A stretch of 64,000 nucleotides of DNA, taken from assembly GCA_021777535.1 (NCBI GenBank), contig JAJYDN010000004.1, positions 1 to 64,000 of the forward strand. Direction: 5' to 3'. The notes under the pieces are model-generated. The model saw nothing but the letters and a program-made list of their open reading frames with translations, ran no database searches and had not been told where the DNA came from. This document shows, in pieces, positions 9,519 to 12,423 of this stretch (its first letter is position 1; every line of letters begins with the position of its first letter). The position numbers and the translations under genes were made by a program. The stretch is from Pseudomonadota bacterium. Lineage in GTDB: Bacteria > Pseudomonadota > Gammaproteobacteria > Acidiferrobacterales > Acidiferrobacteraceae.

Positions 9519-9947
9519 TTAAAGTTCCAACGGCTTGGGTTGCTGGGCCGCATGCTCGTGCTGGGCGCCCGTATAGATCTTCAGCTTGCGGAGCATCTGT
9601 CGGCCCAGGGGGCCCTTCGGCAACATCCCGCGCACGGCTGTCTCCAGGACACTTTCCGGTGCCCGGCCCTTCAGTTCCGTGAAGGTATAGGTCTTCAACC
9701 CGCTTTGGTAGCCGGAATAATGATGATAAAGCTTATGCTCCGCCTTGCGCCCGGTTACCTGAACCTTCTCGGCATTAATGACCACGATATAGTCGCCCGT
9801 GTCGACATGGGGCGTGAATTCAGGCTTGTGCTTGCCACGCAAACGCCTGGCGATCTCGCTGGCGAGGCGCCCGAGCACCTTGTTGGAGGCATCGACCACA
9901 TACCAGTCGCGCCGGACAGTTTCTGATTTGGCCGAGAACGTCGTCAT
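9519..9947 (-). CDS. rplM: 50S ribosomal protein L13
   Basis: 142-aa early-assembly protein of the large subunit. The motifs [29 protein letters not shown] and [19 protein letters not shown] are typical. An open frame runs upstream to 10238 but covers non-coding DNA. The ATG at 9947 has a GGAA-type ribosome site and sits about 27 nt after the predicted transcription start. It is first in the rplM-rpsI-tRNA-Gln operon. Confidence 0.97.
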
Positions 9948-9980
9948 GAGGGTTCCGAGGCATGAATTTCGAAGGGCCGC

Positions 9981-10009
9981 ATAGTACGGAGGACGGGCGG
10001 CGCTGTCAA
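9981..10009 (-). promoter_or_regulatory. rplM operon promoter
   Basis: On the minus strand TTGACA (10004-10009), a 17-bp spacer and TACTAT (9981-9986). It gives a short leader of about 27 nt before rplM. It lies downstream of the terminator at 10062-10096, so the small RNA unit and rplM are separate transcripts. Confidence 0.8.
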
Positions 10010-10061
10010 CCGGGCCCAAGTAAGCCTTGACCGCCTGCGCGCAATTAAGATATATAGGCGG

Positions 10062-10096
10062 AGAAAAAAAGAAGGCGTGGGGTTTAGCCACGCCTT
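10062..10096 (-). terminator. Rho-independent terminator of the candidate small RNA
   Basis: AAGGCGTGG (10088-10096 on the minus strand) pairs perfectly with CCACGCCTT (10072-10080) around a 7-nt loop and is followed by CTTTTTTTC. It could also end transcripts that read through from the upstream ferredoxin gene. Confidence 0.88.
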
Positions 10097-10167
10097 GAAC
10101 CACCACTAGGAGGATGGAGGAGTCTTTAGCTGCGGGAGGGGCCCAAATCCCCTCACCACTAAAGCAT
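10062..10167 (-). ncRNA. Candidate small regulatory RNA with tandem anti-Shine-Dalgarno motifs
   Basis: A free-standing unit of about 105 nt: near-consensus promoter (10174-10202), a 5' stem-loop whose outer arms CUUUAG/CUAAAG (10159-10164 and 10124-10129) enclose a GAGGGG/CCCCUC stem, a pyrimidine-rich linker CUCCUCCAUCCUCCU (10108-10122), and a terminator hairpin with a U-run. No ORF of useful length exists. The linker is complementary to ribosome-binding sites, as in some riboregulators, so translational control is a reasonable inference. The 8-nt motif UAGUGGUG occurs twice. I do not recognise a known family. Confidence 0.65.
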
Positions 10168-10173
10168 ATAATT

Positions 10174-10202
10174 ATTATCTTATATAGAGGGGAATATGTC
10201 AA
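10174..10202 (-). promoter_or_regulatory. Near-consensus sigma70 promoter of the candidate small RNA
   Basis: Minus strand: perfect TTGACA (10197-10202), 17-bp spacer, GATAAT (10174-10179). The predicted start near 10167 is immediately before the first hairpin. The surrounding sequence is unusually AT-rich for this genome. Confidence 0.8.
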
Positions 10203-10234
10203 GAGACATCCCCCTCTTTGTTTTTGGGCCCCAT

Positions 10235-10555
10235 TCAAGGGGTATCGCGGCCGAGCCGGAGACGCTCGACGATGCGCCCGCCCACCAGATGTTCCTGCAC
10301 GATCTCCTCGATGTCCTCCTCATCGACGTAGGTGTACCATACACCCTCGGGATAGACGACGAGCACCGGCCCTTCTTCACAGCGATCCATGCATCCGGCC
10401 GTATTGATGCGCACCTTGCCAGGACCCGCAAGACCCAGGGCCTTGATACGCGCCTTGGCATAATCCCGCAGATCCTGCGCCCCATGCTGCTGACAGCAGG
10501 GGCGATCACCCTCGCGCTGATTCGTACAGAAAAACACATGATGGCGGTAATACAT
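10235..10555 (-). CDS. Thioredoxin-fold [2Fe-2S] ferredoxin
   Basis: About 106 aa. The N-terminal [14 protein letters not shown], then the cysteine pattern CC at 20-21 and [17 protein letters not shown], matches the (2Fe-2S) ferredoxins of thioredoxin-like fold related to NuoE. These carry electrons in the cytoplasm; the partner is unknown. The start is the ATG at 10555, with AGGAG 11 nt upstream. That ATG overlaps the ATG of the divergent glcF-like gene in a shared CATG, so each gene's ribosome site lies in the other's coding sequence. Confidence 0.85.
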
Positions 10556-11787: not shown

Positions 11788-12423
11788 ATGAAGGCGTTTT
11801 CGTTCACAGACCGGATCATCGATCAGCTCGATCAAATGCTGCGTACCTTCACGCAGCCGATAACCGGCGACCCCTATCCTGGCAGCGTCCCGAAGACCAC
11901 GGATACCCTGGACGACCCGGACCGGCGGGAAGTTGCACGCCTCATGCGCGTCAACCATGCCGGTGAAATGGCGGCCCAGGCCCTCTACCACGGCCACGCG
12001 CTGTGCGCCTCGGGTACCACCGTGCATGAGAGCATGCGGGCCGCGGCACGTGATGAACTCGCGCACCTGCACTGGACCACGGCGCGCCTGCGGGAACTGA
12101 AGGGACACCGCAGCTACCTCACGCCCGTTTGGTATCTCGGCTCCTTCGTGATCGGTACCGGCACGGCCCTCATGGGCGACAGCCTGAGCCTTGGATTCGT
12201 CGCCGAAACCGAGCGGCAGGTCGTCGCCCACCTGCAGGGCCACCTGCAGCGGCTGCCTGCGCGCGACCACAAGAGCCGCGCCATACTGGAACAGATGATC
12301 GACGACGAAGGCCGGCATGCGACACAGGCGGTAGAAGCGGGGGGCGTGCGCCCGAACTGGCTCTCGCGCACGGCCATGCGGTTTGCGGCCCGGGTCATGA
12401 CGACAACGGCCTATTGGCTTTGA
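11788..12423 (+). CDS. coq7: 2-polyprenyl-3-methyl-6-methoxy-1,4-benzoquinol hydroxylase (Coq7)
   Basis: Di-iron monooxygenase of ubiquinone synthesis. The repeated ferritin-like ligand motifs are present: NHAGEMAAQ, RDELAHLHW, ETERQVVAHL and DDEGRHA. 211 aa is normal. It starts 4 nt after the glcF-like gene, so the two are likely co-transcribed. Its 3' end overlaps the convergent VOC gene by 13 bp. Confidence 0.93.
   Translation: MKAFSFTDRIIDQLDQMLRTFTQPITGDPYPGSVPKTTDTLDDPDRREVARLMRVNHAGEMAAQALYHGHALCASGTTVHESMRAAARDELAHLHWTTARLRELKGHRSYLTPVWYLGSFVIGTGTALMGDSLSLGFVAETERQVVAHLQGHLQRLPARDHKSRAILEQMIDDEGRHATQAVEAGGVRPNWLSRTAMRFAARVMTTTAYWL

Follow-up and report, generated by a model that had tools for sequence, protein, structure and literature searches.

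Upstream of rplM, the minus strand of the window (the whole 64,000-nt stretch of DNA analysed here) carries at 10202-10064 a promoter, hairpins, the sequence CUCCUCCAUCCUCCU and a terminator. The question raised by this locus is whether these elements form a gene in their own right or the leader of the ribosomal protein genes that follow, and whether the RNA belongs to a known family. The original prediction proposed a free-standing small RNA (sRNA) gene that matched no named family.

The predicted transcript of ~105 nt is laid out as a stem-loop (SL1), a first anti-Shine-Dalgarno (anti-SD) segment, a stem-loop carrying a second anti-SD segment (SL2) and a terminator (Table 1). The near-consensus promoter, the strong terminator and the length of the unit were all confirmed as originally described, the terminator with nine stem pairs and a U run, and the proposed anti-SD architecture is supported by two CU-rich segments. 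The CU-rich stretch had been placed between the hairpins, which holds for its first half; the second half is the loop of SL2, a hairpin that had been overlooked when only the first and last were seen. Nor is the unit strictly free of open reading frames, as had been stated, given that a stop-free frame runs through it into rplM, but this frame is not conserved, since the distances to rplM in relatives differ by numbers of nucleotides that are not divisible by three. Folding of the 105-nt RNA gives -40 kcal/mol (z = -3.1), a stability equalled by two of 200 dinucleotide shuffles, and the 60-nt 3' part reaches z = -3.4 against shuffles. Two promoter-like sites occur in the 2.5 kb region as compared with 0.8 in shuffles, the second being that of rplM itself. 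The signal goes beyond chance because relatives retain the promoter, the core and the terminator.

Table 1. Positions in the window of the sRNA gene, its elements and neighbouring genes.
Feature	Position	Strand	Basis or remark
rplM (ribosomal protein L13), then rpsI	9519..9947	-	ORF and tblastn synteny; locus anchor outside the sRNA
Separate promoter of rplM, TTGACA-N17-TACTAT	9981..10009	-	10/12 consensus matches
Stop-free frame with TTG start at 10238	9519-10238	-	Crosses the whole sRNA into rplM
sRNA promoter, sigma-70 type, TTGACA-N17-GATAAT	10174..10202	-	11/12 consensus matches
-35 element of sRNA promoter	10202-10197	-	
-10 element of sRNA promoter	10179-10174	-	
Predicted RNA start	~10167	-	Predicted end 10064
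SL1, 5' stem-loop	10124..10164	-	MFE -19.9 kcal/mol, z -2.3
Anti-SD segment 1, CUCCUCC	10116..10122	-	Between SL1 and SL2, partly inside SL2 stem
CUCCUCCAUCCUCCU	10122-10108	-	
SL2, middle stem-loop	10100..10120	-	Own fold and consensus fold; equals hairpin 1 of RF02278
Anti-SD segment 2, CCUCCUA	10113-10107	-	Forms SL2 loop
Rho-independent terminator	10064..10096	-	9-bp stem, 7-nt loop, U run
Terminator hairpin proper	10096-10072	-	
Seven U	10070-10064	-	
Region homologous to RF02278 (Betaproteobacteria toxic small RNA)	10066..10125	-	31.1 bits, E=1e-4, full model 1-64
coq7	11788-12423		

Of 96 relatives, 50 gave a BLAST match to the gene. These 50 include 15 of the 17 other members of its own family; the two members without a match (G002 and G017) are drafts of 77-80% completeness. 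The sRNA is single copy in its own genome, a 2.3-Mb draft in which no second copy was found. The 15 own-family genomes share one unchanged sequence from CUCCUCC to the end of the GGCGUGG stem while SL1 drifts, and the promoter (TTGACA/G-N17-GATAAT) is present in every one, a count taken from reading the aligned sequences, as a regular expression missed one. The anti-SD core shows almost no variation over 48 diverse rows; in the near-invariant arrangement CUCCUCCAUCCUCCU-N2-3-GGUGG it is accompanied by an SL1 and a terminator that change in sequence yet stay paired. All eight consensus terminator pairs show two-sided, pair-keeping changes in these rows, and the pairs of SL2 hardly vary, so that they hold no information on covariation. 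The hairpin of SL1 is kept despite its drift, the 40 nt before the core having a mean z of -2.4 in the own family (n=15) and of -2.7 in each of two larger groups (n=21, and n=112 among the matches listed), where upstream control segments average -0.2 and -0.1. The own-family control, at z -1.6, makes the contrast weaker there, and this segment probably overlaps a terminator-like hairpin after the ferredoxin-like gene. SL1 was not recovered in the consensus fold of the own-family alignment because its drifting sequence misaligns, but individual folds compared with shuffles did show it. The conservation of hairpins and CCUCC segment, on which the original prediction had made itself depend, was thus found.

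A pattern scan of named genomes, which fixes the core by construction and gives breadth and no frequency, returned matches in Chromatiales, Thiotrichales, Acidiferrobacterales and others among the matches listed. Two or three tandem cores, 100-150 bases apart, were seen at L127 (5782-6024), G338:C3:141779-142057, G200:C83:5201-5393 and G232:C27:1129-1336. One exact pattern match outside Pseudomonadota, in an Oscillospiraceae MAG (L099), has no terminator and would be due to chance or contamination.

At the curated threshold, Rfam reports only a tRNA in the whole window, and matches to rli48 and suhB/mmgR (E about 2) were rejected as chance. At a permissive threshold applied to the 251-bp intergenic stretch, the RNA aligns to RF02278, a family that reportedly originated with Kimelman 2012 and is treated as betaproteobacterial by Rfam and by the papers found through it. 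The score falls 19 bits short of the curated gathering score of 50 bits, so the sRNA is not a formal member, only a homolog outside the boundary as drawn. The claim that no named family matches was therefore not upheld, as RF02278 does match and its betaproteobacterial members lie at the same locus. No match passes the curated cut-off in the own genome or in 145 relatives. At E<=0.1 the family is matched in 87 of the 145, and also in 5 of 14 control genomes, so only the stronger matches count. Similar sub-threshold matches occur in most of the order. At E<=1e-5, a wider sample of the class gives scores that grade from 38 to 48 bits, the latter reached in intermediate genomes; two further genomes exceed the cut-off, at 54 and 67 bits, and the controls gave no match.

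The reciprocal comparison employed a model (R1) of 48 mainly gammaproteobacterial rows, two of which are RF02278-positive loci. R1 scores the window sRNA at 59 bits and, at the level of the phylum, recovers further RF02278-type genomes absent from the model. Five of the recovered loci (L230, L233, L236, L238, L239) lie between OsmC and rplM-rpsI, and others (L232, L234, L235, L237, L242) beside OsmC-coq7, giving a genomic slot common to the window sRNA and these loci; L230-L242 are called betaproteobacterium-like by inference, with the RF02278 score among the grounds.

That this likeness is convergence is very unlikely. It would mean that any terminator-ended sRNA that blocks ribosome-binding sites (RBSs) shows CUCCUCC in a loop, and the shortness of the conserved core, whose content is dictated by anti-SD function, accords with this, as does the 19-bit shortfall. 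Against it stand the full-length alignment to the RF02278 model, with the same order of CU-rich 5' segment, hairpin with CU-rich loop and terminator hairpin, the graded intermediates, the detection in both directions and the same slot in Betaproteobacteria. Taken together, the common slot, the structure shared over the full length and the graded sequence strongly favour common descent over convergence. The cut-off of Rfam leaves out this RF02278 homolog, which is concluded from these sequence comparisons to be the probable gammaproteobacterial ortholog of the rplM/OsmC-linked RF02278 copy. The family is also not restricted to Betaproteobacteria, the core being matched in gammaproteobacterial orders. 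Matches of 34-36 bits in genomes of 4-6 Mb (f166; L243, L244) were rejected as members because the core differs. In these and in G468 and G472 it reads UAUCUCCUCAUCAAGCUAAUCACGG, with a similar terminator and in some cases two copies in tandem, and it possibly belongs to a separate sRNA.

The sRNA gene lies on the same strand as, and downstream of, a 2Fe-2S ferredoxin-like gene, from which a GlcF-like gene and coq7 diverge with OsmC farther on (names taken from the translations); rplM, rpsI and tRNA-Gln follow. Gammaproteobacterial copies sit in OsmC/coq7/ferredoxin/rplM neighbourhoods, with OsmC, coq7, sRNA and rplM in one stretch in several loci and the order coq7-ferredoxin-sRNA-rplM in the compact genomes G100 and G240. 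On the same strand and within 1 kb downstream, rplM is found in 15/15 own-family loci, 21/24 in the rest of the order, 22/29 RF02278 matches outside the order and 50/112 named pattern matches listed; some contigs of the remaining loci are too short. Among the matches listed, the 118 named loci divide into 59 beside rplM/coq7, 30 beside tgt/queA and 29 beside neither. The position upstream of rplM is probably the ancestral address of the sRNA. The tgt/queA site is a further location of this core RNA (L069, L083, L088 and others, from Thiocapsa, Thiodiazotropha and Sedimenticola), and the assemblies J047 and PL25a_bin.61 appear to hold an rplM-linked copy and another.

This address also invites a reading as a cis-acting leader or attenuator of rplM-rpsI, with conditional read-through of the terminator tuning ribosomal protein synthesis, as the element precedes rplM on the same strand by 153-949 nt in most tested loci of Beta- and Gammaproteobacteria. 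A leader role is nonetheless quite unlikely because rplM keeps its own promoter past the terminator (TTGACA-N17-TACYAT, 33-38 nt before the start codon) in 15/15 own-family genomes. Furthermore, the terminator is long, rich in GC and not accompanied by any evident antiterminator, rplM is without a GGAGG-type site, and about half of the testable named loci listed lie elsewhere, 30 of them beside tgt/queA, with the core unchanged. The original view of a free-standing sRNA gene is supported, and the conserved promoter of rplM argues against its being the rplM leader.

The control of this free-standing gene seems less constant than its product. Sites of the sigma-54 type (TGG[CT]NN[GA]N4TTGC) precede 18 of 24 loci in other families of the order at a similar distance, and neither the own family nor the RF02278 matches outside the order yielded any. 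Among the matches listed in the named scan there are five such sites (L107, L132, L151, L160, L181), all Acidiferrobacterales-like, and the Sulfuricaulis-type L151 shares both the sRNA and the sigma-54 site with G047, a genome of the order, which is therefore probably Acidiferrobacterales. The sRNA thereby appears, from promoter motifs, to be driven by sigma-54 type promoters in the sister families and by a sigma-70 type in its own. Loss of sigma-54 was rejected as an explanation of the own-family promoter, since rpoN is present both there and in the families with the sigma-54 site. In the form TGGC-N7-TTGC, this type of site was seen in most of L019-L033, L042, L043, L047, L051, L054 and L061, all from other families of the order.

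It is considered likely that the locus encodes a free-standing sRNA of ~105 nt, orthologous to RF02278, whose anti-SD sites block the RBSs of several mRNAs, probably with Hfq. The analysis shows how the gene is built, that it is conserved, orthologous and present once, and that the genome has hfq; transcription, Hfq dependence, RBS blocking and a multi-target regulon would carry over from relatives. Transcription from ~10167 to 10064 would yield the free-standing RNA, SL1 would shield its 5' end, and the single-stranded CUCCUCC and the SL2 loop CCUCCUA would pair with purine-rich RBSs of several mRNAs, by which initiation of translation would be blocked, probably with Hfq. By analogy with S17 of Bordetella pertussis, RNase E may cleave the RNA between SL1 and the core. 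The blocking of several mRNAs is expected because such action is reported for Burkholderia NcS27, for S17 and, by architecture, for NmsR, and because hfq is present (G000:C24:63670, 104 bits); as in Hfq-type sRNAs, the RNA has a U-rich terminator tail. Pairing of the CU-rich parts with RBSs is predicted for NcS27 and its homologues, and NcS27 overexpression slows growth (PMC5688073, PMC10987360). S17 directly represses the RBS target BP2158 and binds Hfq (PMC11722255), and changing either anti-SD of NmsR abolished regulation of all targets but one (PMC5362039).

In a screen for the 15-mer complement with <=2 mismatches, no complementary site was kept throughout the family. With the sRNA itself set aside, sites were about twofold more numerous than for a reversed-pattern control, an excess that may reflect ordinary SD sequences. 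Single sites found at the starts of genes, such as that of a CarD-like regulator gene in G000:C75, were rejected as targets since they are not kept across the family. The sequence AGGACGATGGAGCAG, a near match to the anti-SD complement, recurs at several places in G007 and G008, perhaps as part of a repeat.

Since its two anti-SD segments nearly equal that of 16S rRNA, the RNA could also act on the ribosome itself, mimicking the 16S 3' tail, sequestering SD sequences or a factor that binds the anti-SD and lowering translation globally. This is very unlikely: the association with a ribosomal protein operon and the reported toxicity of RF02278 members cloned in E. coli (PMC4603805) speak for it, but S17 alters a limited set of genes and leaves exponential growth of E. 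coli unimpaired (PMC11722255), and the growth effect of NcS27 is confined to some substrates (PMC10987360). A broader conception, doubtful at present, sees an ancestral beta/gammaproteobacterial riboregulator beside rplM-rpsI whose level would follow ribosome production and which would compete generally for strong SD sites, its promoter re-wired between sigma-70 and sigma-54 and its RNA frozen.

The preferred reading, that of an RBS-blocking RF02278 ortholog, widens the RF02278-type family to a large part of the Gammaproteobacteria, including the sulfur oxidisers Thiocapsa, Thioalkalivibrio and Sedimenticola; no published account of the gammaproteobacterial gene was found in the part of the literature covered. 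Such deep conservation is uncommon for an sRNA of this kind and makes its regulon approachable by comparison. A switch of promoter type in the sister families, the RNA staying the same, would offer a clear example of re-wired control.

Among known systems, the ribosomal protein leaders, such as the L13 leader of Rfam, resemble the window sRNA in their position upstream of rplM, but no Rfam leader matches the window and the rplM promoter is separate. NmsRA and NmsRB of Neisseria meningitidis are alike in layout, with SL1, an exposed anti-SD1, SL2 with an anti-SD2 loop and a third stem-loop; they differ as a tandem pair between dsbB and lrp. In S17, sites 1 and 2 are the counterparts of the two anti-SD segments and the primary transcript is likewise longer, and its published neighbour is coq7 (PMC11722255), which is also in this window. 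S17 differs in that S17L is ~190 nt, is cut to ~67 nt and is regulated by BvgA. The double-hairpin RNAs of B. cenocepacia that constitute RF02278 (ncS03, ncS05, ncS27 and ncS62) share the CU-rich 5' site, the hairpin with a CU loop and the terminator. NcS27 is located between BCAL3348a and BCAL3349 (PMC4603805), and some betaproteobacterial copies occupy the OsmC/rplM slot. Compared with these, the window sRNA differs by a few bases in the loop and stem of SL2, scores under the gathering threshold, occurs as one copy in its own family as opposed to 3-5 in Burkholderia, and adds a 5' stem-loop with its own promoter.
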